Shown here piece by piece: positions 3,101-46,000 of a stretch of DNA of 64,000 nucleotides. A program made the translations under genes and the position numbers. Location of the stretch: positions 1 to 64,000 of the IMG/VR virus record IMGVR_UViG_3300044624_001994. One strand, 5' to 3'. Numbering within the stretch: the stretch's first letter is position 1; every line of letters begins with the position of its first letter. Origin of the DNA: a virus. The notes below the pieces were generated by a model. It was not told the origin of the DNA and made no database searches. It saw only the letters and a list, made by a program, of their open reading frames with translations.

Positions 3101-4162
3101 TTATCTCCATTTTCCATCCATTCCTTCTTTTGCAAGCCTATCCATCTGTTGTTCGTATGCAGATTTTTTAGCTTGCACTTTGGTTTCTTTTCCATCTGCT
3201 CTTCTTACAAGTTCAATGTTGTGTACTTTTGCCAGTTCTTCCATGCGAACATTGGCAGCAACATTTCTCATAAATGTAGCAATGATGTCTTTACCATATT
3301 GGAATAGAAGGGTTCGTTCTGCGAAATCATTCAAATGAGCCATGCCCTCTTTTGTAGGAGGTATCTTGTACATTGTTGCATACTTTGCAATCTCAACATT
3401 AATTTGTTCTCTTGCGGAATCTGGTAATGAAAAATTCAACACCGATTCTTTACCGCCAAGGTCAATTTTAAATTCATGCTGTGGCTTGCTCATAATAGTA
3501 TTGACAACTTTGTGCCAGTTGTTATAAGTCTTTTCAGCGTCAGCTTCAGCTGCTTTCTGCATGCGTAAAGCCTCAGGTTCTTGCAAGTTTACCTTCATCT
3601 GTTGAAGTTTCTTGCGACCTTCTATTGCTGCTTTTTTGATTTTAACACCGCCAATGCCATCAAGATCACCATACTCATCTTCAAGCAATTGTTCCAGTTC
3701 ATCTTCTTTTAGCCCAGGATATTCTTTGCTGTACACCATCTTCATGACATCCTTATCAGTAATTTCATCAATGTTCATCCGCTGCAGCTTGATAAACTCT
3801 TGAATATTATCTTCGGGAACGCCATTCCGATACATCTCGTCTAATTTCTGAACCAACTCATTTGAATACTTTGGGCCTCCCTGATATTCCGTAAGTTGAT
3901 TTTCTAAGTAGCCAAGTTTTTGCTGTAATTCGGCATATTTGTCCTTCGCAGTTAAAGCCTCTTGAAACTGAGAATAATTGTTAATCGAACCACCGGTGGC
4001 CTCCACCAGATAGCTTTCAAATTTATCAATAGGAAGGTCACCAATACTTGGAGGAAGATTTACATCCTGTTGTCCGGGTTGTTCCTGATATGAATTTAGC
4101 AGACTTGCAAATTCATCTGATAAATCAGTCGTTTGAGGATTTGGGTTAAACTCGTTTTGCAT
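3101..4162 (-). CDS. Scaffold-like head assembly protein
   Basis: 353 residues, strongly helical and charged, starting MQNEFNPNPQTTDLSDEF. The N-terminal 50 residues are polar and probably disordered. A coiled-coil-like stretch follows (KDKYAELQQKLGYLENQLTE), then an acidic patch (ELEQLLEDEYGDLDG), and the C-terminus is basic (RLAKEGMDGKWR). A helical charged protein placed between portal and major capsid protein is typical of capsid scaffolds, which often bind the capsid protein through a basic C-terminus. No protease motif is visible. Function inferred from position and composition. Confidence 0.65.
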   Translation of the reverse strand: MQNEFNPNPQTTDLSDEFASLLNSYQEQPGQQDVNLPPSIGDLPIDKFESYLVEATGGSINNYSQFQEALTAKDKYAELQQKLGYLENQLTEYQGGPKYSNELVQKLDEMYRNGVPEDNIQEFIKLQRMNIDEITDKDVMKMVYSKEYPGLKEDELEQLLEDEYGDLDGIGGVKIKKAAIEGRKKLQQMKVNLQEPEALRMQKAAEADAEKTYNNWHKVVNTIMSKPQHEFKIDLGGKESVLNFSLPDSAREQINVEIAKYATMYKIPPTKEGMAHLNDFAERTLLFQYGKDIIATFMRNVAANVRMEELAKVHNIELVRRADGKETKVQAKKSAYEQQMDRLAKEGMDGKWR

Positions 4163-4242
4163 AATTTCTTCGTTTTGTTAATATTTAAGATGTAAAAATA
4201 TAGGATTTATCCTAATAAATTTAATTATTTTTCAAAAAAATA

Positions 4243-6651
4243 TCACAAACCTTGATTTTGCATATTTATTTGCTGCTGTTGTTGGTCTTGCAATGCATAA
4301 TCCATTGTTTTTCCGACTGCTTGCTGTTCAATTTGTCCTGTCAACTGCATTGTAATTTCCGCTAATTTGTGTTTGTGTTTTTGTTCGTTCTCCTGCATTC
4401 TTAATTCGAATTCCATTTGCATCTTTTGCATTGCCATTTGCATCTCCATTTGCAATGTTTGCATTTTAGCTTGTTCTGCTGCTTGTGCAGACTGCGCATT
4501 ACTTTCTGCTTGAGCTTGCATTTCCTGCATTCGCATTTGTTGTTGTGTCCGCATAAATGAAGCTGTGGCTTTTGCAAAATACAACTGTGCCTTTTTTAAA
4601 TCTCCTGATGTAATCATATTATACAACACAAAAAAATCAGCACCCGATATTTGTTGTTGCTGTTGCATTCCAAACAATTGTTGGATAAGCATCTGCCGGT
4701 CCTCCTGTGTAGGTCTAAGATTTATTTTTATACCATAGTCATAGTCGTATAAATCTTTGCCTAATATGACTGTTTTTAAAATATTGTCACCAATCGGTAT
4801 GTAATTGGTTTTAATATCTCCATTCAATACAGATACTTGCCATTTTTGCGCTATATACCGGCATTGGTTTTCATATAAACCATAATACAATTGAAAGTGC
4901 GGTCTTAGTGCATTGTTTGTTGCAGCATTCAAGCCTTCCATAACTTTTACAAGCATATCCTGTTGCTGCGAACTACCATCAGCAACTTCATTGATACCTG
5001 TAACTGAACGTATTTGTTCAATAGAAAAAGCTACATCCTGTAATAGAATAGACAAGTCTTCTTGTACACCGGAAGGCATAAATTGAATTGGCGGCCTATT
5101 ACTGCCAGCCATTTCACCATTCTCCCATTCACCAACCGATTCATAAACAAGTACACCTGTTTTTGGAAACAATTCAATTAGGTCAAGAATAGTATAGTTT
5201 TGATTTCCAATAAGAACTGAATCTTCCATTAAAGATTTATCAACTGCCATCCTTGGACCAGGGGCCATTTTTGACAATAAATTTCTTTTCTTTAATACTG
5301 CCAGCTGTATATCATCTATAAAAGCAATACATCTTTCAATAATTGATGGTGACCTGTCTGAATAAATTGTAATTGGCAATTTTGCTCTTTTTACACCATT
5401 GTGCCCTTGTCTTACAACTGCATATTCTTTGCCATAATCAAAAACATAATCTGTACCAACGATCCATTTGCATCTGTAAACATATTCAATTTCTTTTACA
5501 TCTTTTGCTTTGCCACGCTGTTCATCTCTTTTGTCAAGATTGGCATCTAAGCCAACTTTATCATAAATAGAATTACCATCCTTATGATAACCCATGATGT
5601 AGGCTTCGGCTTCTTTTGCGATAAAATAGAACTCCATTACATCAACAGAAAAGCCATCATACATTGTAGAATTAGTACCTGTGCCAATGTAATCGCCCTT
5701 GGCTGTCCTCTGATACGATAACGGGTCTTCTGATACATAAGAAGCATTGCCACCAAACCCACGATACAACTTGCCTATTTTTTTTAATTCTTCTTCAGAC
5801 ATATTGCATTCCATTCGCAATTGCCCTAATGTTTTTCTTTTTACGAAACCTGCATAATCTATATCTCTGTGGTCTTGGTATTTACTTGGTCGGCATACAA
5901 GTTCTTCCGGAGCAATTCTATCAATTTTTACTATGCCAGTGGCTTTTTCTAAATAGGTCAATGTAGCAGCAATATTCAAATCAATAATATCTTCAACTAT
6001 TTGATTTTTGATTGTTGACCATCCCGATTCATAGTTTGTACATTCAATTGCATCTTGTATCATCAATTCCTGATTCAATCTGAACCCGCCCATCTTATTA
6101 AATATCTCCACATCCTCTGGCGATTCAACTCCTTCGGGTAATTCTACATTTGTAGGCTGTACATTTGTTTGTTGGAACAGTTGCTGCATTGCTGGATTCG
6201 AATACAATTTCATTTTCGAAACTTCCAATATTCTTTCCTTTGTACTTGTTTCATCTATTGCAGTAGTAACTACATCAAAATCCATTGTTATCATTTTACC
6301 TCTAACAATATCTCTGAATTTTGACATTACTTGTACATTATCCCAATTTATATTTAAGTAGCCTTCGTTTTTATTTTTATCGTCACACTGGTCTAATAGG
6401 TCCATATAGATAGTTCTATCCTGCTGTCCTAATGCATACGCTCTTAACTCGTAAAAGGTTCTCCCTGATGGCGTGTAACCACCATAAGGCACTAATGTCC
6501 TATCTGTTGCATATTGGCTCCAAACATACTGCGCCCAACGGAGAAAATATTTCTCATCCATTGAGTCAGGGTCTTTTTCAGTTGGAACTGTATAACTGTT
6601 TTTTTTATACTGTTCCGTATTTATATATGCATTATCTCTGGTGCTTTCCAT
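4243..6651 (-). CDS. Portal protein
   Basis: 802 residues, the usual length for large podovirus portals. It has alternating helical and beta segments, and the last 120 residues are extremely rich in Gln and Met in a long helix (MQQQQQI, then QMRMQEMQAQAE, QMEMQMAMQKMQMEF), as expected for the barrel helices and C-terminal crown. It lies directly after the large terminase and before the scaffold-like gene, the standard place of the portal. The portal forms the ring at the capsid vertex through which DNA enters and leaves. A TATTTTTG hexamer-type promoter motif lies just upstream at 6672-6679. Confidence 0.8.
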   Translation of the reverse strand: MESTRDNAYINTEQYKKNSYTVPTEKDPDSMDEKYFLRWAQYVWSQYATDRTLVPYGGYTPSGRTFYELRAYALGQQDRTIYMDLLDQCDDKNKNEGYLNINWDNVQVMSKFRDIVRGKMITMDFDVVTTAIDETSTKERILEVSKMKLYSNPAMQQLFQQTNVQPTNVELPEGVESPEDVEIFNKMGGFRLNQELMIQDAIECTNYESGWSTIKNQIVEDIIDLNIAATLTYLEKATGIVKIDRIAPEELVCRPSKYQDHRDIDYAGFVKRKTLGQLRMECNMSEEELKKIGKLYRGFGGNASYVSEDPLSYQRTAKGDYIGTGTNSTMYDGFSVDVMEFYFIAKEAEAYIMGYHKDGNSIYDKVGLDANLDKRDEQRGKAKDVKEIEYVYRCKWIVGTDYVFDYGKEYAVVRQGHNGVKRAKLPITIYSDRSPSIIERCIAFIDDIQLAVLKKRNLLSKMAPGPRMAVDKSLMEDSVLIGNQNYTILDLIELFPKTGVLVYESVGEWENGEMAGSNRPPIQFMPSGVQEDLSILLQDVAFSIEQIRSVTGINEVADGSSQQQDMLVKVMEGLNAATNNALRPHFQLYYGLYENQCRYIAQKWQVSVLNGDIKTNYIPIGDNILKTVILGKDLYDYDYGIKINLRPTQEDRQMLIQQLFGMQQQQQISGADFFVLYNMITSGDLKKAQLYFAKATASFMRTQQQMRMQEMQAQAESNAQSAQAAEQAKMQTLQMEMQMAMQKMQMEFELRMQENEQKHKHKLAEITMQLTGQIEQQAVGKTMDYALQDQQQQQINMQNQGL

Positions 6652-17665: not shown

Positions 17666-17705
17666 GACTGAAATGTAGTTCCAGCCTATGTTTCAGTCTT
17701 TTTTT
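17666..17705 (+). terminator. Rho-independent terminator after the first rightward gene
   Basis: An 8-bp stem GACTGAAA/TTTCAGTC (17666-17673 and 17691-17698) with a 17-nt loop is followed by seven T. It lies 54 bp after the stop of the winged-helix gene. The same stem core CTGAAA/TTTCAG with a 17-nt loop also occurs at 17020-17048 in the control region. Confidence 0.75.
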
Positions 17706-17782: not shown

Positions 17783-17972
17783 TATGTCCTCAAGCGGAGG
17801 GCATGGATTGAAAATGTGCATATACGCAGTTCTCGTTGAACAACAGATGGCTTTTGCGTACATGGTGTAGTGGTTCTTTGACTTTGTGGGCTTCCTTATT
17901 TGTTGCAATTGTGCAATAGGGCAAATTTACAGAAAGGCGTAAAACGTCGGGTTCGATTCCCGAAATAAGGAC
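17783..17972 (+). ncRNA. Structured non-coding region ending in a tRNA-like cloverleaf
   Basis: Between a terminator and the next gene there is no convincing coding frame but several hairpins: CCTC/GAGG near 17788, a two-part hairpin TACGCA/TGCGTA (17823-17828 and 17855-17860) enclosing GTTC/GAAC, and the tRNA-like part from 17894. The density of stems suggests a stable RNA. Boundaries are approximate, set by the candidate promoter and the end of the tRNA-like element. Confidence 0.4.
17894..17971 (+). other. tRNA-like element, not a normal tRNA
   Basis: A 7-bp acceptor-like stem CCTTATT/AATAAGG, a perfect T-arm (TCGGG, loop TTCGATT, CCCGA), a D-arm-like stem TTGC/GCAA and an anticodon-arm-like stem TTTAC/GTAAA are present in order. 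However the anticodon-like loop has 8 nt without the invariant T33, and nine unpaired bases separate the D-arm and anticodon arm. It could be a degenerate tRNA, a tRNA-mimicking RNA, or the tRNA 3'-end copy carried by an attP site. No integrase is seen in the window. Confidence 0.5.
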
Positions 17973-18210: not shown

Positions 18211-18297
18211 ATGTTTATTTACATTCTTTATTATTCGGTCTGTGTTATTATGCTTATTACTTGCTTTGTTGGGTTTTACTATGCTGACAAAAAATAA
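18211..18297 (+). CDS. 28-residue single-pass membrane peptide
   Basis: ATG at 18211, stop TAA at 18295-18297. The peptide is one hydrophobic helix (IYILYYSVCVIMLITCFVGFYY) with a short charged end ADKK. Its stop codon abuts hairpin copy 1 exactly as for the longer neighbours, which supports it as a real gene of the cassette array. Confidence 0.6.
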   Translation: MFIYILYYSVCVIMLITCFVGFYYADKK

Positions 18298-18339
18298 CGG
18301 AACTTGGAGCATGGGCGGAATCGTTTTCCGCCTTCCGTT
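18296..18339 (+). repeat. Intergenic hairpin repeat, copy 1 (type A)
   Basis: 44-bp core that begins inside the stop codon of the upstream gene. Outer stem AACGGAA/TTCCGTT; an 11-nt bulge CTTGGAGCATG on the 5' side; inner stem GGCGGAA/TTCCGCC with loop TCGTT, directly joined to the 3' outer strand. It is followed by an AT-rich leader to the next ATG. Confidence 0.9.
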
Positions 18340-18378
18340 CAAAACTTATTTATTTATTCATCTTAAAACTTAATTTTT

Positions 18379-18594
18379 ATGAAAATTATAATTGAAGACC
18401 AAACACTTTTTGGATTCCAAACTTGGGCAGGAGCAACAGAAACAAAAAATGCTATTTTAAAAGCTGATAAAGGGCATCACTTTGAACTTTTAATTGAGGA
18501 ATTATACCCCGAAGGTTTAACAGATGTTCAATTAAACGACATTTTATGGCATGAGTGGGATTATATTTTCGAACAACTTGGTATAACTGAATAA
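18379..18594 (+). CDS. Unknown 71-residue early protein
   Basis: Starts MKIIIEDQTLFGFQTWAGA. Small acidic alpha/beta protein; the middle HFELLIEELYPEGLTDVQLNDILWHEWDYIFEQLG looks helical. Flanked on both sides by hairpin repeat copies 1 and 2. Function unknown. Confidence 0.75.
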   Translation: MKIIIEDQTLFGFQTWAGATETKNAILKADKGHHFELLIEELYPEGLTDVQLNDILWHEWDYIFEQLGITE

Positions 18595-18637
18595 ACGGAA
18601 CTTGGAGCATGGGCGGAATCGTTTTCCGCCTTCCGTT
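18594..18637 (+). repeat. Intergenic hairpin repeat, copy 2 (type A)
   Basis: Same as copy 1 (inner stem GGCGGAA/TTCCGCC), starting at the last base of the upstream stop codon. Reading from TTG inside the repeat stays open into the next gene, an accident shared by only some copies. Confidence 0.9.
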
Positions 18638-18673
18638 CAAAACTTATTTTTTCACTTTTTAATCTTAAATTTT

Positions 18674-18826
18674 ATGGAACTTTTATCTGTCATGTTAATC
18701 TCTTATTTCTGTCTGTTTTTGGTGTTTGCTTATACAGAAAGACACACCATTATTAAAAACCTATCAGATAGCAAAAAACGCTATTGGGATAGAAACAATT
18801 TCCAAGACTACAATAACTTTTTTTAA
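18674..18826 (+). CDS. 50-residue membrane protein
   Basis: ATG at 18674 chosen because the longer reading would start with TTG inside the hairpin repeat. One membrane segment (LLSVMLISYFCLFLVFAY) is followed by a charged tail (TERHTIIKNLSDSKKRYWDR). Single-pass membrane protein of unknown role. Confidence 0.65.
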   Translation: MELLSVMLISYFCLFLVFAYTERHTIIKNLSDSKKRYWDRNNFQDYNNFF

Positions 18827-18848
18827 CGCTCGCTTAAAACCTTATAAA

Positions 18849-19052
18849 ATGAAAACTTCAGAGTTAAAACAGAATTATTCAATATTTGGCAATAAAGGTA
18901 CTGTTTGGTCAAATACTGCACACATTTATAAATCGGGTCAAGGTTTACTTTGTGGCACTCCTGCACTATCAACTAATTGGGCAGCCATTGAAAAATTAGA
19001 AGAAATCGGATGTAAAGAATGTTTGGCTAAATACAAAGACGAACAAAAATAA
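18849..19052 (+). CDS. Unknown 67-residue Cys-containing protein
   Basis: ATG at 18849 (MKTSELKQNYSIFGN) chosen over an upstream in-frame ATG that would overlap the previous gene. The C-terminal half has a Cys (LLCGTPALS) and a CxxC (IGCKECLAKY), which could hold a metal but is incomplete for a classical zinc finger. No hairpin separates it from the membrane-protein gene, so those two form one cassette. Confidence 0.7.
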   Translation: MKTSELKQNYSIFGNKGTVWSNTAHIYKSGQGLLCGTPALSTNWAAIEKLEEIGCKECLAKYKDEQK

Positions 19053-19095
19053 ACGGAACTTGGAGCATGGGCGGAATCGTTTTCCGCCTTCCGTT
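19052..19095 (+). repeat. Intergenic hairpin repeat, copy 3 (type A)
   Basis: 44-bp core with the type A inner stem, starting at the last base of the stop codon, followed by the AT-rich leader ending in ATG at 19132. Confidence 0.9.
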
Positions 19096-19131
19096 CAAAA
19101 CTTATTTATTCATTCTTAAAATCTCAATTTT

Positions 19132-19443
19132 ATGAGCAGTTTAAAATTAGATAGTGTTTCAATGGTGATGTTAGATGTTAGCAAAATTCACCCTTTTATT
19201 CTTGACTTTATGGTAGGTCAAGCCGAATTTATTGACAATTCGGGAACATTAAACGAGAGTATATATTTTGCATCATTTTTTGCCGATTTTCAGACCATAT
19301 TTATTCCATTGTGGGATTCTGTTGCGACTGAATATAAAGATGGCTCAGAAACCCAATTAAAAGCCTTAGAAGCCATTAAACAATGGTATGAACTTGAAGT
19401 AATTTGTAAAAACTACTTTTATTGTATTTTAACGGGACAATAA
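19132..19443 (+). CDS. Unknown 103-residue early protein
   Basis: Starts MSSLKLDSVSMVMLDVSK. Helical, acidic, with several aromatic residues (DFMVGQAEFIDN, IYFASFFADFQTIF). No motif recognised. Lies between hairpin copies 3 and 4. Confidence 0.75.
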   Translation: MSSLKLDSVSMVMLDVSKIHPFILDFMVGQAEFIDNSGTLNESIYFASFFADFQTIFIPLWDSVATEYKDGSETQLKALEAIKQWYELEVICKNYFYCILTGQ

Positions 19444-19486
19444 CGGAACTATGGAGCATGGGCGGAATCGTTTTCCGCCTTCCGTT
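19442..19486 (+). repeat. Intergenic hairpin repeat, copy 4 (type A)
   Basis: 45-bp core: as type A but with one extra base in the 5' bulge (CTATGGAGCATG), which creates an ATG. Confidence 0.9.
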
Positions 19487-19522
19487 CAAAACTTATTTTT
19501 TCATTCTTAAATTTTTAATCTC

Positions 19523-19810
19523 ATGTCATTACAGAAATTAAACTTTGCCAAATTAGAAGAATTTGAACCTACAATTTACCATGAATTTGTAAATAGTCAA
19601 GGCAAACAAATTCGATTCGTTGAACATCCATTTGATGGTGATGAATACCCAATTATCATTATGTTTATGGAAGATAGAAAAGCATTCAATTCGGAATTTT
19701 ACGATTTAGACGATATGCTTGCCGACCATAAAGATTACGAACCTATGTTAGTAATTGATTCAGAAGGTAAAAAACAATGTGTTTTCGGTTATGAACTAAA
19801 ACTATATTAA
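19523..19810 (+). CDS. Unknown 95-residue acidic early protein
   Basis: Starts MSLQKLNFAKLEEFEPTIYH. Acidic with the pattern HPFDGDEYPIIIMFMEDRKAF and a final strand-rich part (MLVIDSEGKKQCVFGYELKLY). Not recognised. Lies between hairpin copies 4 and 5. Confidence 0.75.
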   Translation: MSLQKLNFAKLEEFEPTIYHEFVNSQGKQIRFVEHPFDGDEYPIIIMFMEDRKAFNSEFYDLDDMLADHKDYEPMLVIDSEGKKQCVFGYELKLY

Positions 19811-19853
19811 ACGGAACTTGGAGCATGGGGAGAATCGTTTTCTCCCTTCCGTT
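19810..19853 (+). repeat. Intergenic hairpin repeat, copy 5 (type B)
   Basis: First copy of the second sub-type: outer stem unchanged, inner stem GGGAGAA/TTCTCCC with the same TCGTT loop. Compared with type A, two base pairs change on both sides so that pairing is kept. Confidence 0.9.
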
Positions 19854-19889
19854 CAAAACTTTATTTATTCATTCTTAAAACTTAATACC

Positions 19890-20174
19890 ATGCAAAAAGC
19901 AAAAGTATTTTTGAACGTAACGGAAACCAATTTTGGCAAATTTCCAACACTACCAAACAATCAAAAAGTGAACAGAGATACAATTGTTTACTATGCTTCA
20001 AAAGTTACTGATAAAGGAAAGGAAAGTATTTTTTTCTTGATAAGGCATAAAGATGCAAAGCTATTAAAAGATAATAATTTTGACATTCAGTCAATTTTAG
20101 TTCCTGCTGGCTTCTATCCAGCTGCAATAAGTTACAAGTATAACGATACAAGACTTGAAATAAACTTTATTTAA
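19890..20174 (+). CDS. Unknown 94-residue early protein
   Basis: ATG at 19890 (MQKAKVFLNVTETNFGKF); the longer frame would begin with TTG in the hairpin. Basic, beta-rich (TIVYYASKVTDKGKESIFFLIRHKD). No hairpin follows this gene: it starts a run of five genes packed without repeats. Confidence 0.7.
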   Translation: MQKAKVFLNVTETNFGKFPTLPNNQKVNRDTIVYYASKVTDKGKESIFFLIRHKDAKLLKDNNFDIQSILVPAGFYPAAISYKYNDTRLEINFI

Positions 20175-20195
20175 AACTCACAAAATTTCGATTCT

Positions 20196-20498
20196 ATGAA
20201 CTTAAACCACCATTTCTGGACAATCAATAAGCAATTCGTTTTAGATGTCTTAAAATACGAACTTGGAAGCGATGTGACAATAATTGATGCATCTTATCGG
20301 AATGACGAATGCCCGAGTTTTGAAATTTCATATCAAGGCAAAGAAGGTAAATTATATTTGCCATCTCATTATGAAGGTGAATTTAGCAATTATATGTTTT
20401 TCGAAGAAAAGGAATTTGAAAACATGGATGACATTAAATATTATTGTAGCTCAAATTTGGGTGAAATATTACAATGCATCAATAATCACATTTTCTAA
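20196..20498 (+). CDS. Unknown 100-residue acidic protein
   Basis: Starts MNLNHHFWTINKQFVLDVLK. Acidic alpha/beta protein with EKEFENMDDIKYYCSSNLGEIL near the end. Not recognised. Short leader of about 20 bp. Confidence 0.7.
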   Translation: MNLNHHFWTINKQFVLDVLKYELGSDVTIIDASYRNDECPSFEISYQGKEGKLYLPSHYEGEFSNYMFFEEKEFENMDDIKYYCSSNLGEILQCINNHIF

Positions 20499-20515
20499 TT
20501 TTAAAACTTATTACA

Positions 20516-20713
20516 ATGCAAAAAGCTATCAAATTACTTGCAAAAGTAAAGACTAAAAGCAATTTCAGACAATTGAATGATACCTACCTACCAATAGATG
20601 AAATGCAGGAAAGCAGGGTAACTTGCTTAGTCTATGACCATGACTACAAAAAGTACATTAAAGTAGATTTTCATCTCACAGAAGTAACAGATTTTAAAAC
20701 AATTCAAAATTAA
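20516..20713 (+). CDS. Unknown 65-residue protein
   Basis: Starts MQKAIKLLAKVKTKSNFRQL. Mixed small protein, basic N-terminus, TYLPIDEMQESRVTCLVYDHDYKKYIKVDFHL in the middle. Function unknown. Confidence 0.65.
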   Translation: MQKAIKLLAKVKTKSNFRQLNDTYLPIDEMQESRVTCLVYDHDYKKYIKVDFHLTEVTDFKTIQN

Positions 20714-20719
20714 CCTACC

Positions 20720-20893
20720 ATGACACACCAGCACGTCTTTTTAAAGACTTTATTTGCAAAGGTAATAGAACCTACCAACAAAGGAGTAAAAGTTCTTACA
20801 ATGGATAAAAAAGGATTCACAAAGACTGAAAAAACAGGCAAGATCCAGTTTTTTAGTACAGACGAATGGAAAACATTATTTAAAGCAATTTAA
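20720..20893 (+). CDS. Unknown 57-residue basic protein
   Basis: ATG at 20720, TAA at 20891-20893. Starts MTHQHVFLKTLFAKVIEPTN, with 12 Lys in 57 residues and KGFTKTEKTGKIQFFSTDEWK near the end. The tight spacing (6 bp after the previous stop, 11 bp to the next start) supports it. Function unknown. Confidence 0.65.
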   Translation: MTHQHVFLKTLFAKVIEPTNKGVKVLTMDKKGFTKTEKTGKIQFFSTDEWKTLFKAI

Positions 20894-20904
20894 ACTCCTA
20901 TTTT

Positions 20905-21144
20905 ATGACAGCAGCAGAAATTAGAACCAACACAAAAAACATGACTTTTGAACAAGCATGTGATTATATTCAAAGCATAGGTCTTGAACTGATTCCTTCA
21001 GAAAACCATCCTTTTCTGAAAAGTTGGGAAGTTAAAAACCATAAGGAATTTAGTCGAATCTCAAGTTATATGGAATACGAACTGAAAGGCGCAAAACTTG
21101 TAAAAAGGAAAGCAGATGTATTGTTTTGTTTTCATGAATTTTAA
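20905..21144 (+). CDS. Unknown 79-residue protein
   Basis: Starts MTAAEIRTNTKNMTFEQACD. Helical N-terminus, basic C-terminus (LKGAKLVKRKADVLFCFHEF). Followed immediately by hairpin copy 6. Not recognised. Confidence 0.7.
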   Translation: MTAAEIRTNTKNMTFEQACDYIQSIGLELIPSENHPFLKSWEVKNHKEFSRISSYMEYELKGAKLVKRKADVLFCFHEF

Positions 21145-21187
21145 CGGAACTTGGAGCATTGGGGAGAATCGTTTTCTCCCTTCCGTT
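21143..21187 (+). repeat. Intergenic hairpin repeat, copy 6 (type B)
   Basis: 45-bp type B core with one extra T in the bulge (CTTGGAGCATTG). It is followed by a second repeat family at 21218-21248 before the next gene, the only place where both occur together. Confidence 0.9.
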
Positions 21188-21217
21188 CAAACTTATTTTT
21201 TAACCTGCTGACGATGA

Positions 21218-21248
21218 TTCGGTGACGATAATAGTTAGCAAAATTTTA
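21218..21248 (+). repeat. Direct repeat family 2, copy 1 (before the RadC gene)
   Basis: Contains CGGTGACGATAATAGTTAGC followed by AAAATTTTA. The same 20-bp core occurs twice in tandem at 25163-25225. It lies 8 bp before the RadC-like start codon and may be a binding site, promoter or iteron. Confidence 0.75.
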
Positions 21249-21255
21249 ATGCCTT

Positions 21256-21795
21256 ATGGAAAATTTAGAATTATTGATTGGCAAAACTGCTGCTAAAAAA
21301 ATCTTTGATAACAATGTCAATGTGATGCAATGCAGCGAGGATTCTATTCAGTATTTAATTGGGAAAAAAGCGGCTGCAAAGATAAGTGCTGCAAAGCAAT
21401 TGTTTGTCGCTAAGGAAGAATCTGAAACGATAAGAAGCAGCAAGAATATTGCAGATATTTTTCGGGAATTAAAGTTTTTGGATATAGAACAAATGCACGT
21501 TTTATGTTTGAACAGAACTAACAAAGTAATAAGCAAGTTTATGCTGTCAAGTGGAGGTAGGTCGGCAACTTTATGCGATATGGCAGTATTGTATAAAAGA
21601 ATATTACTTAGTAATGCCAGCGCATTTTGTGTAGTACACAACCATCCATCGGGCAACAATGCACCTTCGCAAATGGATATAGAATTGACTAAGAAAATAT
21701 ATCAAGCATCTTTAATTCTTGACTTAAAACTTCTTGACCATGTAATTATAGCTGGAGATGATTATTACAGTTTTTGTGACAATGGACATTTATAA
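21256..21795 (+). CDS. RadC-family JAB/MPN protein
   Basis: 179 residues. The C-terminal domain (about 62-179) carries the JAB metalloprotease signature H-x-H-P-S-G at 128-133 followed by Ser138 and Asp141, in the usual spacing, with LCLNRTNKVISKFMLSSGG before it as in RadC. The N-terminal 60 residues are a short helical region in place of the longer helix-hairpin-helix part of cellular RadC. RadC-like proteins are common in mobile elements of Bacteroidota; the biochemical role is not settled, with DNA repair or anti-defence suggested. It lies between hairpin copies 6 and 7. Confidence 0.85.
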   Translation: MENLELLIGKTAAKKIFDNNVNVMQCSEDSIQYLIGKKAAAKISAAKQLFVAKEESETIRSSKNIADIFRELKFLDIEQMHVLCLNRTNKVISKFMLSSGGRSATLCDMAVLYKRILLSNASAFCVVHNHPSGNNAPSQMDIELTKKIYQASLILDLKLLDHVIIAGDDYYSFCDNGHL

Positions 21796-21837
21796 CGGAA
21801 CTTGGAGCATGGGGAGAATCGTTTTCTCCCTTCCGTT
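21794..21837 (+). repeat. Intergenic hairpin repeat, copy 7 (type B)
   Basis: 44-bp type B core beginning inside the RadC stop codon. Confidence 0.9.
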
Positions 21838-21871
21838 CAAAACTTATTTTTTCACTTAATTTTTAATGCTT

Positions 21872-22120
21872 ATGAACTATCAAAAAATGTATGAGGAATT
21901 GCTCGCTGAATTTGAGCAGTACAAAAGAGAATCTGTAAAATGGTCTGTGGATGACTTTTTAACTTACAATGATATTTATGCCGACAAAGGTCTTTATATC
22001 ACAATAGGCAGAGCAAAAAAAGCCTTAGAACACATGATTAAATCACATGATTCCGAATATGGAATTTCTTGGAGTAGTGTTGATTGTTTTTTCAATTTGT
22101 ATGCTTTAAAATCTGAATAA
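21872..22120 (+). CDS. Unknown 82-residue helical protein
   Basis: ATG at 21872 preferred (an ATG two codons earlier exists) because it matches the leader spacing of neighbours. MNYQKMYEELLAEFEQYKRE starts a charged helix. No motif recognised. Two bases separate its stop from the next start. Confidence 0.7.
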   Translation: MNYQKMYEELLAEFEQYKRESVKWSVDDFLTYNDIYADKGLYITIGRAKKALEHMIKSHDSEYGISWSSVDCFFNLYALKSE

Positions 22121-22122
22121 CT

Positions 22123-22296
22123 ATGATGTTTTATTTTTTGATCTTGATAGGCATAGTTAAGCCACAAGACGATGAATTGTATGCTTTTTTTACTCCCGAT
22201 GGCAAAGTATATGAATACTGCTATAAGGAAGAAATTATTGAAGCAATAAAGACTGGGCAATTCTGCTATAATGAAGATTTGCATTTAAACAAATAA
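22123..22296 (+). CDS. Unknown 57-residue protein
   Basis: ATG at 22123 (or the adjacent 22126), stop at 22294-22296. N-terminal MMFYFLILIGIVKPQ is hydrophobic but short, then a small acidic domain (ELYAFFTPDGKVYEYCYKEEI) resembling a beta-hairpin. Its stop overlaps hairpin copy 8, as with the other cassette genes. Confidence 0.6.
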   Translation: MMFYFLILIGIVKPQDDELYAFFTPDGKVYEYCYKEEIIEAIKTGQFCYNEDLHLNK

Positions 22297-22339
22297 CGGA
22301 ACTATGGAGCAAGGGGAGAATCGTTTTCTCCCTTCCGTT
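22295..22339 (+). repeat. Intergenic hairpin repeat, copy 8 (type B)
   Basis: 45-bp type B core with bulge CTATGGAGCAAG. Confidence 0.9.
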
Positions 22340-22374
22340 CAAACTTATTTTTTCACTTTTTAATACTTAAATTT

Positions 22375-22902
22375 ATGTTCGAAATTAAAGCAAAAATAGG
22401 CAATATTGACTTGTCAATGTTTGACCTTAAACAACTAACAGACAATGCTAATTCTTCTGCTGAAGCATTACAGAAACACAATGATGATGTGTATTGTAAA
22501 TTTCAAGAATTCGTTTTAGATTTTATCGAAAAAACAAATTCAGTTTTAGCTAAAATTGGATTAGACGAGAGATTTATAAATACAAATTACCATATTAGAG
22601 AAAATTATATATGTTCACGTTCTAATGGTCTTTATTGTAAATATGATATTGGTCATGGAAGGGCATCAATCTATCTTTATTTTGAAACCGACAAAATAAG
22701 TGATAAATTAACTTATGATTTTAAAGGTCAAATAATAATAAGAAAAAGCTGGAATAATAATTTTATAAGAGAAGAATATGACTTAGAATCAGTAGGTCAG
22801 GTTTTTGAACTTGGAGCAGATGTTATTAAATTTTTTATAATTGATAGAGATGTTACTGATAATGATGCAAGACGGAAATTAGAAAAGGAATTGACCTACT
22901 AA
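22375..22902 (+). CDS. Unknown 175-residue early protein
   Basis: Starts MFEIKAKIGNIDLSMFDLKQ. An N-terminal helical part (EALQKHNDDVYCKFQEFVLDF) is followed by a beta-rich domain with RENYICSRSNGLYCKYDIGHGRASIYLYFETD. No recognised motif. Among the larger proteins of the array. Confidence 0.75.
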   Translation: MFEIKAKIGNIDLSMFDLKQLTDNANSSAEALQKHNDDVYCKFQEFVLDFIEKTNSVLAKIGLDERFINTNYHIRENYICSRSNGLYCKYDIGHGRASIYLYFETDKISDKLTYDFKGQIIIRKSWNNNFIREEYDLESVGQVFELGADVIKFFIIDRDVTDNDARRKLEKELTY

Positions 22903-22946
22903 ACGGAACTATGGAGCATGGGGAGAATCGTTTTCTCCCTTCCGTT
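22902..22946 (+). repeat. Intergenic hairpin repeat, copy 9 (type B)
   Basis: 45-bp type B core with bulge CTATGGAGCATG. The frame from its ATG is open into the next gene. Confidence 0.9.
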
Positions 22947-22982
22947 CAAACTTATTTTTTCACTTTTTTAATCTTTAATTTT

Positions 22983-23519
22983 ATGGCAAATATGTGTTAT
23001 AACTATGTTGTGTTCAGCGGTGAACCAGCAAACATTGAAAAACTCAATCAAAGGATTGATGAAGCTATTGAAACTGAAAAAAGGACTCAATTAGCACAAC
23101 AGATTCATAGTCACGAAGAAATTATTGATAGGCATTTTTTTGATTTAAGCAAAGACATGACTGATGAAACAGAACTGAATATCATGTATGACACAAAATG
23201 GGATAGCAATATCTTAGATGTTGCCAAAATTTGTGTTGAATTTGGAGTAACAGCTAATCATGAATTCAGTGAAACATCTTCTTACATCTATGGAAGCTGT
23301 TCTATTGATGAAAAAGGTAATGTCATTGAAGATACTGCACCAGCTGAATTTTGTGATTTGATTGATTATGACGAAGAAAAAGATGTTTATATCTACAATG
23401 GCGATGAATGGACTTTTCAAGATGAAATTTTTGAATGGGAATATGAAAGATGGAAAGCAAAGCAACCCGAACAATATTGGTTAAAGACTTATAATCTTAA
23501 TGATTTTATAAACAAATAA
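22983..23519 (+). CDS. Api92-like (ferredoxin-like fold) protein
   Basis: ATG at 22983 (MANMCYNYVVFSGEPANIEK) chosen over the ATG within hairpin copy 9. The opening M-C-x-N-x-V-x-F-S-G-x-P-A-x-I and the later MYDTKWDSNI plus AKICVEFGVTANHEFSETSS resemble the Api92/YubB-like family found in phages and conjugative elements, where a W-x-x-K-W-D segment is typical. The family function is not known. 178 residues, acidic. Confidence 0.5.
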   Translation: MANMCYNYVVFSGEPANIEKLNQRIDEAIETEKRTQLAQQIHSHEEIIDRHFFDLSKDMTDETELNIMYDTKWDSNILDVAKICVEFGVTANHEFSETSSYIYGSCSIDEKGNVIEDTAPAEFCDLIDYDEEKDVYIYNGDEWTFQDEIFEWEYERWKAKQPEQYWLKTYNLNDFINK

Positions 23520-23562
23520 CGGAACTATGGAGCAAGGGGAGAATCGTTTTCTCCCTTCCGTT
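23518..23562 (+). repeat. Intergenic hairpin repeat, copy 10 (type B)
   Basis: Last copy, type B, bulge CTATGGAGCAAG; followed by TCTAACTT instead of TCAAACTT. It precedes the sliding clamp gene; downstream of the clamp a different hairpin is used. Confidence 0.9.
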
Positions 23563-23595: not shown

Positions 23596-24714
23596 ATGAA
23601 AATTCAAATCGTAAAAGCAGAATTGCTTGAAGCAATCAAGACAGTTATCAAAATTGTTCCTTCTAAAGCAATTATCCCCGACATTGAAAACATTTGTTTG
23701 CAGGGTAAAAATGGTATTGTTACCATCTCCGGTACTGACCTCACTACTTTTGTAAAGTACACATTGAATCAGAAATCTTACTTTGAAGGTAATTTTGAAT
23801 TTCTGATTGATGCAGCAAAATTTGACAAAATTGCTTCTCTGTGCGATAATTATGTTGAAATGGAGGTAATGGGTGACAAGTGCAAAATAACTACCTTACA
23901 AGGTAATACAACGCTTCCTATATATGAAGCAAGTTGTTTTCCCGATAAGAAAGAAATAGGAGATAAAATAGCTGATTTTAGCGAAAAGCAAAATGTCTTT
24001 TTTCACATCAAAAAAGCTATTGGCTATGTAAGTACAGATGAATTGAGAATAAATATGTGCGGAGTTCATCTTGATATTGTTGATAATACCTTGTCAGTAC
24101 AAGCAACAAACGCAAATATTCTTTATCTACATGATACAGAATGCGTCAGTAAAACCAACACAAGTGTTATTATTCCTGCAAAGACTTGCAAGATCTTGAC
24201 AAGTTTAGAAAATGATGATTTTTCTCTTTATCAAATATCTGGAACTGAATATAGATTCCAATATCAAACGATTGACATATACTTTACTGCAACAGATGCA
24301 AAATACCCACAAGTAAGAAGCATTATTCCAAAGCAAAGTGACCATATCAATGTATTCAGTTTTAAGAAACAAGATATTATTAAGACGATAAGTGCAGTAA
24401 TGATAACTGCCAATATTCAAACAAACGGAATCCAATTCTATGTTGGTGATGAAACAGCTAAAATCAAATCTGTTGACCTTGATAATAACATGGAAAGTGA
24501 AATGGAGCTGAAAGTTAGTATTGACAAAAAAGTTGATGATGTCTTTAAATTTGCTGTCAATGGTAAGTTTATTACAGATGTTATAAACAGCATAAATTTG
24601 CCAAATTCGGAACAAATTACTTTTTACATGAGAGAGTTAAACAAGGCATTGTTATTCTATACAGATGACTTTAAAACGCTTCACATAGTAATGCCAATCG
24701 TATTTAATGACTAA
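23596..24714 (+). CDS. DNA sliding clamp (DnaN-like beta clamp)
   Basis: 372 residues, the length of bacterial beta clamps. The N-terminus fits domain I (ELLEAIKTVIKIVPSKAIIPDIENICLQ, then GTDLTTFVKYTL), the middle shows FHIKKAIGYVSTDELRINMCGVHLDI of domain II, and the end ALLFYTDDFKTLHIVMPIVFND has the M-P peptide-binding pocket end of domain III. It forms the ring that tethers the polymerase to DNA. It closes the hairpin-cassette array; other replisome genes are in the leftward operon. ATG at 23596 is used, not the ATG inside hairpin copy 10. Confidence 0.88.
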   Translation: MKIQIVKAELLEAIKTVIKIVPSKAIIPDIENICLQGKNGIVTISGTDLTTFVKYTLNQKSYFEGNFEFLIDAAKFDKIASLCDNYVEMEVMGDKCKITTLQGNTTLPIYEASCFPDKKEIGDKIADFSEKQNVFFHIKKAIGYVSTDELRINMCGVHLDIVDNTLSVQATNANILYLHDTECVSKTNTSVIIPAKTCKILTSLENDDFSLYQISGTEYRFQYQTIDIYFTATDAKYPQVRSIIPKQSDHINVFSFKKQDIIKTISAVMITANIQTNGIQFYVGDETAKIKSVDLDNNMESEMELKVSIDKKVDDVFKFAVNGKFITDVINSINLPNSEQITFYMRELNKALLFYTDDFKTLHIVMPIVFND

Positions 24715-24730
24715 CAACTTATTTATTCAT

Positions 24731-24757
24731 GGGGCAGTATTTTGCTGCCCTATTTTT
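24731..24757 (+). terminator. Terminator-like hairpin after the clamp gene
   Basis: Stem GGGCAG/CTGCCC (24732-24737 and 24745-24750) with a 7-nt loop and TATTTTTT after it. It is followed by the usual AT-rich leader of the next gene, so it may be a partial terminator inside the operon. Confidence 0.6.
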
Positions 24758-26794: not shown

Positions 26795-26990
26795 TTTCTT
26801 GTTGTTTTGCAAATTCTACAAATTGTTCCCACGTTTTTTTTCTCATGTGCTTTGTGTAATCCTTTCGAATAAAAGCATCTTTTACTGGATGGTAAACATA
26901 TTCATGTTTGTTTATTTTAATGCCACCAAAACGAACACCAAGGCTTATGTATGGCTGTTGTGATGCATTAAATATTATGATTGCTTCCAT
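26772..26990 (-). CDS. Unknown 72-residue protein
   Basis: Starts MEAIIIFNASQQPYISLGVR, overlapping by one base the stop of the synthetase-like gene. Basic, with YVYHPVKDAFIRKDYTKHMRKKTWEQF. Not recognised. Confidence 0.65.
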   Translation of the reverse strand: MEAIIIFNASQQPYISLGVRFGGIKINKHEYVYHPVKDAFIRKDYTKHMRKKTWEQFVEFAKQQENENTDKP

Positions 26991-27847
26991 TATAGTAAAC
27001 CTGACATTTCCATTGCACGAACAAGACGAGTAAGACCAATGCCACCACCATAACGAGGAAAGAATTTATGTTCTAAAAATTGATTCAATTCTTCTATTAC
27101 TCTGTCATATCCAAACAATTCGAATAGTTTTTCTGAGTATTTTCCACCTTCAATAGCAAAAAATGTTTCTCGCATTTGCTCTACATCGCAACTTCTTTCA
27201 GCTGAACCAATTGTTTCCTGCCCATGCAGAATTACATCGCACTTACTTGCTGTTGCGCCAGCACGTTTCATATTCCAAAAAGGATTTGTATGCTCCGGAA
27301 ATAGGGTAAGGAAAAATACTGGACTTTCATTTTGGCTGATAAGACCTTCTGTTGCAGAATCAATTTCAAGTACATTGTATTTCTTTTGCATCAGCTCATA
27401 AGTTGAGATGACATATTCTTCAGTAAAACCAAGAAATTGCAAAAGTTCTGTTTCTAATGCAATCATCTGTTCGTAATTTCCTGCAGATTCAAATTCAAAC
27501 ATCGGGAATATTTTGTGATGCCTTCCGGGTTCGGGATTTTTCTCATTGCGATAGCTTGTAGTTACACAGCAAAATCCTTTTTGTTCTGGAAAGGTAAGCA
27601 GATAATCTTCCAATGTCATTTGACCTGTCTGTGGTAATGGCCATTCAAGACCATCATAAGAAAACTTTGCAATTGAATGCGGATTTTCGCAAGCTGCAAG
27701 AATAGCAAGTCTGTTCTGTGGATGAACTTCAGCAAATCCATTTTTTCTAATAAAGAATGATCGGAGTAATTCAGTTACTTTAGTGTACTTTTCAAATGGG
27801 ATTTGTGGGTACATCTGTGAATTTAAAAAATCTGATAGCATTTTCAA
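26990..27847 (-). CDS. Class II aminoacyl-tRNA synthetase-like catalytic core (AspRS/AsnRS/AsnA-type)
   Basis: 285 residues. Class II motif 2 is seen as FCCVTTSYRNEKNPEPGRHH then IFPMFEFE, and motif 3 as GGGIGLTRLVRAMEM near the C-terminus; ILHGQETIGSAERSCD resembles the active-site segment of AspRS and AsnRS. There is no OB-fold anticodon-binding domain, so it is a stand-alone core like archaeal asparagine synthetase or other synthetase paralogues. It may make asparagine, charge a small molecule, or modify a protein or tRNA; the sequence does not decide. It lies among lysis genes in the leftward operon. Confidence 0.75.
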   Translation of the reverse strand: MKMLSDFLNSQMYPQIPFEKYTKVTELLRSFFIRKNGFAEVHPQNRLAILAACENPHSIAKFSYDGLEWPLPQTGQMTLEDYLLTFPEQKGFCCVTTSYRNEKNPEPGRHHKIFPMFEFESAGNYEQMIALETELLQFLGFTEEYVISTYELMQKKYNVLEIDSATEGLISQNESPVFFLTLFPEHTNPFWNMKRAGATASKCDVILHGQETIGSAERSCDVEQMRETFFAIEGGKYSEKLFELFGYDRVIEELNQFLEHKFFPRYGGGIGLTRLVRAMEMSGLL

Positions 27848-43015: not shown

Positions 43016-46000
43016 TTAATTATTAAATAGTTTCTTTTTGACATAAGATTTTTTATTAAGATAAATCGTTTCATTGCCTATTTCTATATAGCCATTATTT
43101 AAGAACTTATCATACTCAGCAGTTTTTTCTCTCCATATCTTGTAAATGACTTCAGCATCTTTAATAAACTGCTCATACGCACCTTTTCTATCACCATCTT
43201 CTTGTGTAGATACAAATGCTTCAATGACCTTTTCTAAGTCATTATAATCAGATGATTGCCATAAATCATATTTGTTAGCCATTTCTTTAATACCTTGTAC
43301 AGCTGTAATGTTTTCTATGTCGCTTTTTCTAATAAATCCTGATATTTTCATAATGTCAATAGCATTGTCAAATATTGATTCGGATTCCCAAGATGCCTTG
43401 CCTATAAAACTGTTTTTATCATCGCCAGGCTTATATTTATTTAAAGCTGCATTGTATTCCTTTTCGCTTTCATAGTCATCTCTTTCGGGTACACCAGGGC
43501 GTAATGTTTCAACTGTTTTCGTACCTACTTCTCCGAAAAATGTAAAATATGATTTTATCAAGTGGTCAATATTTCTACTATCTTGACCGCCTAATGCATC
43601 GCCAAGAATATTGCCTAAATAGGAACCAGTTCCTTCTTTCTCTCTATCAGCAACTGGTACTTTAGATTCTCCGTATGGAATAATAGTTGACTTATAAAAC
43701 GTATTATAGTTTGTAGATACTTCTACTATTGGCTTTAAAGTTCCAATAATATCCCACTTTAACTTGTTTGGATTAAATAAAGAATATGCGTTTCCGTAAG
43801 AACCTATATGACCTCTAAATGCTTTTTCCATATCTTTTGTATGAATACCTTGCACTAATCTTTCAGCAGATGTACCCATTAAACCATATTCAAATGGCTT
43901 TGGTATTCTTATCATTTCATTTGACACAGCTGGTATTTTGAAATTATAGAATAGGTCACGCTCGTGCGGAGGCAATTCCATGTATTCGTCTTCATAACCA
44001 CCTAAATATGCCATTGCATAGAAGAAAATAGAAGGCAATGCAGCACCTGCAATTATAGATGAAAATGCTTGTGCCGGATTTTCTCTCATTGCTTGCAACA
44101 TTCTTAATTGACCTTGTAGCTGTGCATTCGAAAATGGTATAACTCTGTTAATTAATTTCATGACAGTACCAATCTTAGCAAAGTCCATCAAATCCCTTGC
44201 TTGATAGGCAGCATATAAAGCAGCATCATACTCGTCATAGCCCAATTTAGTCATAGCGTATTTATATGCAGATTGATATTCTGTAACCCTTGTTACACGT
44301 TCTCCTTGAGCTAACCAATTATCGTAATTATTGTAAATGTTTTTTAATGTTTGAAAATCTACAACAATACTACCTGAACCTTTTTTGGCAAATTTTCTCA
44401 TTTCCCTATAAAGCGCAGCATAGTAATGCTCTCTTGACTTTGTATAATATCCTGCTTGTCCACCACCATACAACTGAAGCATTTTATCAGCATCACTTCT
44501 TGTAAGTGTTGCAATTTCTAATATGTTATCAATTTCTTGTTTTGAGAATCCATATTCCTCCATTGCCGCTCTTGTGTTAAAATTATTATATAGCGTTCTG
44601 CTTATAAATAATTGTTGCTGTAAATCTCTTATGATGTTCCTTGCAGCAAAAAATGGATTTTTGGTAGCTGTAAATCTTACTAATTTGGCTTGCGCCCCAA
44701 CTATGTTTAATGTCATATTGAGCAATGCACTTTGCTTATCTCCTTTAAAAGTAGTAGATAATGCTTCGTAAACGGCCGGGTCAAATTCCCATACTTCACG
44801 CACACCATTATTAAAAATAACAATAGCTGGCCTATCGCCTATTTGCTGATTAGGGGCCATTTGTATCTGTCGGCCGATATTAGCAGTTGCTTGCGGAGAA
44901 CCTTGTTCCATTCCACGATTACTTCTTAATAAATCAGCAAATTGATTGAGCATATAATTTGTATCAGCTTCTTCAATCGCTTTGTACATATTTGTCATTA
45001 AGTTCTCGTATGGATCAAATCTATCCCTTGAACTACCAACAATTTTGTCATCAAATGTTTGTCTTCCTGATGCCGTTTTAAACAATGATGCTTGTGTAGA
45101 ATCATCAAAATTTGTATCAAATCCCGGCGTTGAACTCATGACACGATTCATAGCAACATACTGCAAGTTATTATCTTTGATTTCTTTTACAAATTCAGGA
45201 GATAACCTGCCATGGTCCATCATGTAAAACAAAATTTGGTCCGCAAATACCCGGTATCTTCTTGCTGCCTCTTTTAGCATTTCTTGTTTCTCTGGTGTTA
45301 ATTCAGTTTTGACAGCATTAAGCAGTTCTTTTGCTGCATCAAAGTCATTTTGCCCAAGCAAACCAAGTCCAGATATTACTCTTTGTTTTATCTTGTTCAA
45401 CAATGGATGATTAGATATGTCGGGGTGTAATGTATCATAGTCACTATTTACCCAATCCATCAATTTATCAATTGTTGCAACATTATCAATGTTTATTCTA
45501 AATCCATTGTCAAGTAAAAACTGCGCTTTTTCTTCAGCATTTTTTACCGGGTCTGTTGTTTTTCTATCAATGTTATAAAATTCATATTTAATTTGAGCGT
45601 AGTCGGCATCTGATATTTTATACATATCAAATATCTCTTCCTTTGCAAAACGCTTAGACAACTCAACGGTACGCTCTGCAACCATGTATGAACCTACAAG
45701 TTGCTTTGCTTCTACTATCTCTTTTAATCTTTTTTTAAAGCCTTTAAATCCTGCTTCTAACATACCGAATGGTTCAGAAAGCCAACGAAGTGTTATAGCT
45801 TCTTTTTTGCCAGTCTTTGGATTGGTGTCCATTGCTTGTGTATAACCTTTTGGACCTAATCGAACCATACCATCTTGTTGCAATAGACCAATTTTATCAC
45901 CAATGCCCGGCAATTGCCTTGCAAGCCAGTAAGGGTTTTTAGAAGGTCTAATTTCTTGCATTCCTTTGATGCCCATCAATTGTTTTTGAGCCTTAATCAA

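Follow-up and report, generated by a model that had tools for sequence, protein, structure and literature searches.

A tRNA-like element lacking the anticodon arm recurs at gene junctions of a phage early operon and of unrelated phages, and is a candidate site of mRNA processing

The RNAs mascRNA and menRNA fold like tRNAs, having an acceptor, a D-like arm, a T-arm and an anticodon region that is reduced; they are embedded in longer RNAs (nuclear lncRNAs of animals), and are matured by RNase P (PMC11693755). In animal mitochondria, tRNA-shaped structures punctuate polycistronic transcripts, standing at gene boundaries where they abut stop codons; these separators are functional tRNAs. RNase P reads the stack of T-stem and acceptor from the elbow (PMC4919913), and its substrates include non-tRNA phage and intergenic RNAs, namely phi80 M3 RNA, the P1/P7 C4 antisense RNA, T4 gene 32 mRNA and intergenic transcripts (PMC11143913). 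Cluster K mycobacteriophages, finally, carry SAS, a 13-bp sequence linked to start codons, and the inverted repeat ESAS of 17 bp, which are repeated between small non-structural genes and in part form inverted repeats (PMC3203893).

The elements analysed here resemble mascRNA and menRNA in their arms and in being embedded in longer RNA, and the mitochondrial separators in their position. They differ from the former in lacking the short helix that mascRNA and menRNA keep in the anticodon region, and in that their processing is predicted; they differ from the latter in being truncated, non-decoding mimics that we suppose to be cut. M3, C4 and T4 gene 32 are, unlike them, single cases with no conserved three-arm fold and no repetition between genes, and PMC3203893 does not describe tRNA-like features for SAS or ESAS. 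Searches of the open-access literature returned no description of the element.

The window, by which we mean the whole 64,000-nt stretch of DNA analysed, contains ten copies in one early-type operon. All ten had been listed in the original prediction as hairpins at stop codons, and all are present on the + strand, 44-45 nt long, each beginning on a gene's TAA stop 0-2 nt before the end of that codon, so that its last one or two A are the first bases of the stem. They lie at 18296..18339 (copy 1; AACGGAA CTTGGAGCATG GGCGGA ATCGTTT TCCGCC TTCCGTT), 18594..18637 (copy 2), 19052..19095 (copy 3), 19442..19486 (copy 4, with a 12-nt linker), 19810..19853 (copy 5, with the second T-stem type GGGAGA/TCTCCC), 21143..21187 (copy 6, again with a 12-nt linker), 21794..21837 (copy 7), 22295..22339 (copy 8), 22902..22946 (copy 9) and 23518..23562 (copy 10, whose tail CTAAC is as in other phages), and each matches both our descriptor and the covariance model R3 (see below; E 1.8e-15 for copy 1). 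The antisense strand of the window holds no copy, and a search of the 69.8-kb virus record with up to three mismatches allowed found no further ones. The spacing of 33-40 bp to the next start originally given holds for eight copies (33-39 nt) but not for copy 6 (68 nt from element end to start, with another repeat inside the gap) or copy 7 (28 or 34 nt, by the start codon chosen); from stop to start, 8/10 of the gaps carrying a copy measure 76-80 nt. Likewise, the hairpins do separate genes at ten junctions, whereas six tight junctions (2-22 nt) have none.

A terminator scan places canonical intrinsic terminators on the + strand upstream of the array (17666..17698) and downstream of the last operon gene (24729..24753), a DnaN-like clamp (23596-24714). 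The first unit of the array is a longer tRNA-like element (17894..17970, + strand), a descriptor match with a 7-bp acceptor, a 5-bp T-stem, a TTCGATT loop and a 46-nt linker in which no anticodon stem is recognisable. The ATG at 18007 follows it after 36 nt, its T-arm (17948-17962) is the only other match of R3 in the window, and neither ARAGORN nor the Rfam tRNA model calls it.

Each copy is a tRNA-like structure on a 44-nt scale that is missing the anticodon arm. What was originally described as an inner stem-loop is a T-arm, the outer stem corresponds to the acceptor, and the "asymmetric bulge" forms a miniature D-arm whose UGG loop is conserved. Descriptor and covariation together give an acceptor helix of 7 (6) bp, a very small D-arm whose stem is 2 bp and whose loop is UGG, and a T-arm with a stem of 5-7 bp and a 7-nt NTCGNNT loop (consensus NUCGNNU in RNA; ATCGTTT in the window type), followed by a 3' tail. 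Acceptor stem and T-arm, with a loop of the TTCRA type, thus agree with canonical tRNA. The linker of 9-20 nt has room for the D-arm-like hairpin only, in the variants CA-UGG-UG, CU-UGG-AG, UA-UGG-UA and AA-UGG-UU; elements of the Gordonia phage VanLee have full D-stems, e.g. GCTC-TGGT-GAGC. The tail, N-C-W-A-A, resembles the ends of Bacteroidota tRNA genes: in a Sphingobacterium genome, C74 is present in 14/14 tRNA genes and is followed by A/T in 13/14.

Selection on the structure had been proposed from the change of inner stem between copies 1-4 and copies 5-10, in which two adjacent pairs do covary. Because covariation in two blocks amounts to about one evolutionary event, this inference is weak on window data, and the pairs changed on both sides there are not unusual by shuffling (169/500); the homologues of other phages support it strongly. 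A stem-blind pattern, containing only letters of the loop, linker and tail, was searched in IMG/VR and found many contigs whose stem sequences differ yet pair. Its matches form a bimodal distribution, with 0-1 of the 13 pairs mismatched in 20 of them, at least 5 in 12 and no match in between, and the W-W pair of the linker is complementary in 20/20 folders vs 7/12 non-folders. A second, tail-blind pattern yielded 36 folders and 18 non-folders: C directly follows the acceptor in 30/36 folders, a stop codon lies at -12..+4 in 26/36 folders vs 2/18 non-folders, and an ATG lies at most 60 nt away in 30/36 vs 6/18. When 24 distinct elements without gaps are compared, 98.3% of cells are paired, double-sided changes occur at 14 of the 15 pairs, and the covariation score is 0.85, compared with 0.18 for shuffled and 0.12-0.24 for slid alignments; G-U pairs occur in 17/504 cells. 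Homologues that vary without pairing, named in the original prediction as evidence that would speak against it, were looked for, and the opposite was found, pairing being kept. The covariance model R3, built from sequences outside the window, recovers all ten copies (E 2e-11 to 2e-15); nothing in a 445-kb control fell below E 0.1.

Sequence comparison places the same element between the genes of many unrelated phages, whose G+C ranges from 0.31 to 0.66 and in which the distance to the next start is 13-56 nt. Cultured Mycobacterium phages Phantastic and Rockstar carry it unannotated, as does an operon of VanLee, where it fills 16/17 gaps longer than 40 nt and where a strict descriptor returns 14 sense, 0 antisense and 0 shuffled matches. 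Genomes hold several copies (10 in the window, 10 in G410, 9 in G433, 16 in VanLee), and in L141, a phage of 124 kb, copies follow one another in tandem (3754-4314) where long ORFs are lacking. Copy 9 precedes a DUF1281-like gene (22983-23519), a neighbour that the element also has in record L108; the element is absent from the distant relatives for this gene (L040, L041, L110 and L111), and the contig of the closest relative (L042/G001, whose terminase is 67% identical) breaks within the early region. Three of 395 Bacteroidia genomes searched scored, two of them through 3' halves of real tRNA-Leu and the third through a probable element preceding an ORF. Exact-hairpin patterns gave chance matches only in IMG/VR and GTDB genomes because the stem letters are not conserved, and DNA similarity search of phage and plasmid records returned no homologue.

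The elements escape standard annotation: ARAGORN and the Rfam tRNA model (RF00005) do not call them, they reach the threshold of no Rfam family, and the GenBank records inspected annotate no feature at them. The nearest family is mascRNA-menRNA (RF01684; E 0.013), to which two VanLee elements score 26.8 and 23.0 bits, below its gathering score of 42.5 bits; the window copies have no RF01684 match.

The elements combine a covariation-backed structure, homology across phages, sense orientation and a position at gene junctions with features that guide RNase P to its substrates (a 12-bp-class acceptor/T stack, an elbow, an unpaired 5' flank and N73-C74). Among the functions originally offered, a processing site is the best supported, and we consider it reasonably probable that the element is a cis-acting tRNA mimic at which host tRNA maturation enzymes cut the phage mRNA; that cutting occurs, by which enzyme and with what benefit, we infer. 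In this reading each copy is transcribed within the polycistronic early mRNA, immediately behind a stop codon and 13-40 nt ahead of the next start; its acceptor and T-arm form a coaxial stack of 12-13 bp, the GG of the mini D-arm loop can contact the UC in the loop of the T-arm to make the elbow, and the tail N73-C74-W-A-A resembles the end of a tRNA gene. RNase P would cut at the 5' edge, at or beside the stop codon; in addition or instead, tRNase Z or 3' exonucleases would cut past the discriminator, turning the long transcript into mRNAs with defined ends, one of them capped by a stable tRNA-like fold; candidate benefits are the mRNA ends themselves, stability and per-gene control. In many copies the cut is predicted inside the UAA stop, like the tRNA borders of mitochondrial genes. 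As to whether the elements form an undescribed, widespread class of anticodon-less tRNA, used as intercistronic punctuation by phages of at least two host phyla, at which host RNase P (and tRNase Z) would produce the individual mRNAs, we regard the case as evenly balanced.

Several observations stand against cutting. For copies starting on TAA, RNase P is predicted to cut inside the stop codon itself, which would yield a message lacking a stop, unless cutting follows translation or the message is tailed. The full CCA preferred by E. coli RNase P is missing, the tail being CWAA; tRNA genes of a plausible host group are likewise without a full CCA. With RNA energies, ViennaRNA gives the outer stem a probability of 0.01-0.8, the GGA of the linker competing for the same 3' arm, and does not favour this stem in several copies of the window; with DNA parameters, its central pairs form at >0.9. 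The six tight junctions, moreover, have no element.

The mimic could instead act uncut, bound in the message by a factor that recognises tRNA, such as EF-Tu, the ribosome, a phage protein or an aminoacyl-tRNA synthetase, and would then control termination, re-initiation or mRNA stability between neighbouring genes. EF-Tu and the ribosome also read the acceptor/T-stack and elbow, so these features suit this explanation too, as do the stop-start location, the fairly fixed spacing in the window and the inclusion of the stop codon in the fold of many copies. Yet the distance to the next start varies widely among phages, the C74 tail would be unnecessary, and the class II synthetase-like gene (26990-27847, PF00152) is missing in 15 related or element-bearing records, and we think this unlikely. 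A dedicated synthetase partner was rejected, phrog_29758 being restricted to the window phage. Stable 40-48-nt tRNA-like RNAs that act in trans and serve as decoys, whether for defence nucleases that cut tRNA, for modification enzymes or for systems that sense tRNA, would fit the many copies per genome and the L141 tandem array; nearly all copies are nevertheless sense and bound to gene junctions, neither of which a trans RNA would need, and there is no anticodon loop as bait for anticodon nucleases, which makes this quite improbable.

We give very little credence to ordinary intercistronic hairpins whose likeness to tRNA arms is due to chance, be they RNase III sites or leaky intrinsic terminators. 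The stem is stable and a T-rich stretch lies downstream in the window phage, but this stretch begins ~7 nt past the stem and is thus not a terminator tail. The partial terminator originally suggested is unsupported, since the geometry is wrong, the terminator scan calls none of the ten copies, none has a U-tract within ~2 nt of a G+C-rich stem, and the phage's canonical terminators differ; over such a range of G+C, terminators would also not be expected to share the UGG of the linker, the UCG of the loop, the lengths of the helices and the C of the tail. An element acting as DNA (an attC-like cassette site, an ssDNA hairpin or a promoter hairpin for a phage RNA polymerase) would explain why ssDNA folding robustly gives the drawn shape and why copies border small gene units. 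Its use of G-U pairs and an orientation that follows the genes make this a highly doubtful reading. N4-type virion-RNA-polymerase promoter hairpins, our first idea, came to look improbable: the giant ORF of 5092 aa encodes a polyvalent protein (ddrB-ParB, SNF2-like helicase, LPD38), and no RNA polymerase domain was found in it or in the other large ORFs tested. Integron attC, defined by R''/R' boxes (RYYYAAC...GTTRRRY) with spacer and extrahelical bases, was rejected, the ends AACGGAA...TTCCGTT-CAAA containing no GTTRRRY box by eye, and so was a leader peptide begun at the linker TTG/ATG, whose frame agrees with that of the next gene in just 4/10 copies.

If host tRNA enzymes do cut at these elements, phages would run a mitochondria-like tRNA punctuation with stripped-down tRNAs, which would account for many of the 75-100-nt gaps that separate small phage genes and would link the expression of phage genes to a ribozyme essential to the host. 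The idea can now be tested in cultured Mycobacterium and Gordonia phages, and the elements would offer minimal substrates from nature on which RNase P's recognition of the acceptor, of the elbow and of the 3' tail can be told apart.

Ten nearly identical copies of a 44-45-nt element lie on the plus strand of the window at 18296-23562, within a small-gene operon bounded by canonical intrinsic terminators at 17666-17698 and 24729-24753. The copies had been predicted to sit at stop codons, and all ten start on the TAA of the preceding gene; the regular spacing to the next start holds for eight gaps (76-80 nt from stop to ATG) but not for copy 7 (70 nt) or copy 6 (111 nt), the latter because a different repeat (TTCGGTGACGATAATAGTTAGCAAAATTTT) occupies the same gap. 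A second repeat, GGTGACGATAATAGTTAGCAA(AA)TTTT, is unrelated to the element and has three intergenic copies in the same cluster (21221, 25166 and 25199, plus strand), and a search of other IMG/VR contigs for an exact 20-nt match found none.

The element's outer stem is an acceptor stem and its inner stem-loop is a T-arm. What had been read as an 11-nt bulge is instead a miniature D-arm, a stem of two pairs capped by a UGG loop (CA-UGG-UG, CU-UGG-AG, UA-UGG-UA and AA-UGG-UU); Gordonia phages have complete D-stems, e.g. GCTC-TGGT-GAGC. The tRNA elbow pair set joins the D-loop GG with the T-loop UC. The outermost pair is absent in 19 of 42 distinct elements, and without it the stack is 6+6 = 12 bp plus a discriminator-like base, whereas tRNA builds the same 12 bp as 7+5. 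With a tail-blind pattern, C comes next in 30 of 36 folders (matches whose expected stems pair). All 14 distinct tRNA genes of a Sphingobacterium genome lack CCA and have C74, then A or T in 13, which is the element's N-C-W-A-A tail. The element is too small to hold an anticodon arm as well, and we therefore regard it as an anticodon-less tRNA mimic; a tRNA proper was rejected, the decoding arm being missing, and the hairpins are not terminators, although a partial terminator had been suggested as one possibility. No Rfam family reached threshold for the elements; the best match, mascRNA-menRNA, was weak, and membership of RF01684 was rejected on a score below threshold.

Copies 1-4 and 5-10 differ in two neighbouring base pairs and no others, which the original prediction took to mean that the RNA structure is under selection. 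Because the copies are recent paralogues, these changes amount to about one event; 169 of 500 shuffles matched the double-sided pair count in the window, and on RNA folding the linker GGA of several copies preferentially pairs with the 3' arm. The window alone therefore leaves selection plausible rather than demonstrated, but pairing is kept in homologues elsewhere (98.3% of cells in 24 distinct gap-free elements). An IMG/VR pattern built from linker, loop and tail letters only (CWTGGWGCNNGN7TCGNNTN13CWAA), whose loop letters derive partly from the window and whose stems are independent of it, yielded 40 stretches with 32 distinct matches. These were bimodal over the 13 expected pairs (20 with 0-1 mismatches, 12 with 5-12, none in between), and the two linker W positions, unconstrained by the pattern, were complementary in 20/20 folders versus 7/12 non-folders. 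Across the 24 gap-free elements, double-sided changes are seen at every one of the 13 pairs in the acceptor and T-stem and at one of the two linker pairs, with a covariation score of 0.85 against 0.18 when shuffled and 0.12-0.24 when slid. Linker pair C8-G14 is held constant by the pattern itself; elements later found by the model carry U-A and A-U there. A covariance model trained without window sequences (R3) recovered all ten copies (E 1.8e-15 to 2.4e-11); its sole other window match was the T-arm of a longer element at 17894, and 445 kb of control loci gave no match below E 0.1. We are nearly certain of the element's structure and family.

Exact-hairpin searches succeeded in no collection searched. 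Searching for homologues of the neighbouring DUF1281-like gene led to another phage locus, L108, where this gene is flanked by elements in the same layout and with very different sequence (AGACAGG CATGGTGCTCG GAGGGG CTCGTTT CCCCTC CCTGTCT CTAA); in one copy the T-loop, TTCGACT, is that of a textbook tRNA. Ten loci were then scanned on both strands with a descriptor that specifies no stem letters and asks for an outer stem of 7 bp, 8-16 nt of 5' linker, an inner stem of 5-6 bp and a 7-nt loop NTC[GA]NNN, the two arms adjoining each other on the 3' side. Its only short-type matches were the ten window copies and the three L108 copies. The descriptor script also picks longer tRNA-like forms directly 5' of early genes, including one at 17894-17970 in the window, 36 nt upstream of the first small gene. 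Others, with TTCGA T-loops, lie at 3204-3308, 3451-3570 and 6520-6578 in L108 and 817-919 in a further locus, L111; their linkers span 28-89 nt, most immediately precede early genes, and they are possible intermediates between a real tRNA and the mini form.

In IMG/VR, 61 loci, some of them on the same contig, hold 42 distinct elements of 44 nt, with G+C of 0.31-0.66. Window-like arrays occur in two other contigs (G410, 10 copies in 7 kb; G433, 9 copies). The element is present in Mycobacterium phages Phantastic (L205) and Rockstar and in Isca; in the first two it is itself unannotated and lies between annotated genes 80 nt apart. Gordonia phage VanLee has a leftward operon of small genes with 17 gaps longer than 40 nt. 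The element is present in 16 of these, and a Shine-Dalgarno-like stretch and then ATG generally come after it; the strict descriptor gave 14 sense matches, with 0 antisense and 0 in shuffles. Morgana has at least seven elements. Streptomyces phage Endor2 gives weaker matches. Its annotated tRNA-Arg (L246, 4379-4461) and an annotated CDS overlap; they belong to an operon of small genes in which the other gaps give weak mini-tRNA matches, and the tRNA-Arg is worth re-checking as tRNA-like punctuation. A 124-kb phage contig (L141) has about five elements in tandem, with 60-100-nt spacers, in a stretch (3754-4314) that has no long ORFs. One subtype is followed by a further conserved hairpin-rich sequence, CTCTGCTCACAGCAGGCTCGTAATGCAACGAGGGGAGGGG (L116 5350(-), L119 8786, L132 943(-), L150 1285, L151 4125(-)), with which it perhaps forms a larger RNA.

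Among the tailed-phage genes of the 69.8-kb virus record to which the window belongs are those for the portal, terminase, primase, DnaB and a 5092-aa polyvalent protein, and one with a crAss-like muzzle domain; gene content and leaders make a Bacteroidota host plausible. The polyvalent protein (43016-58294, minus strand; ddrB-ParB, SNF2/ResIII-like helicase and LPD38 domains) is probably ejected together with the phage DNA. A 285-aa class II synthetase-like core (PF00152, phrog_29758; 26990-27847, minus strand), not found in 15 other records tested, would by its length have no space for the usual anticodon-binding domain. The only called tRNA, a tRNA-Met (CAT) at 1440-1512 on the minus strand, also lies between genes, with 27 nt separating it from the ATG at 1412; its tail (T-CTATTT) is of the same kind as the element's, and it possibly also serves as punctuation.

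RNase P measures along the T-stem/acceptor stack, starting at the elbow (PMC4919913); its known substrates include intergenic transcripts as well as the phage RNAs M3, C4 and T4 gene 32 (PMC11143913). The parts that the element keeps (fixed-length acceptor/T stack, elbow and N-C tail) are those RNase P uses, and the lost anticodon arm is required for decoding only; from these, together with the position at stop codons, we propose that the elements are processed as tRNA punctuation, a function we consider moderately likely. A separator role agrees with their sense orientation at stop codons within polycistronic operons of small genes. RNase P would cut at the 5' edge, tRNase Z or exonucleases would cut at the 3' edge, or both would happen. 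For copies starting on TAA, the predicted RNase P cut falls inside the stop codon (between UA and A, or U and AA), a conflict that might be avoided if cutting follows translation, if tails restore the stop or if it is cutting at the 3' edge that matters; it does not arise in VanLee and many other phages, because there the stop lies a few nt upstream of the element. This class of element is of high interest because it is widespread, has gone unannotated and can be tested directly in phages that are in culture.
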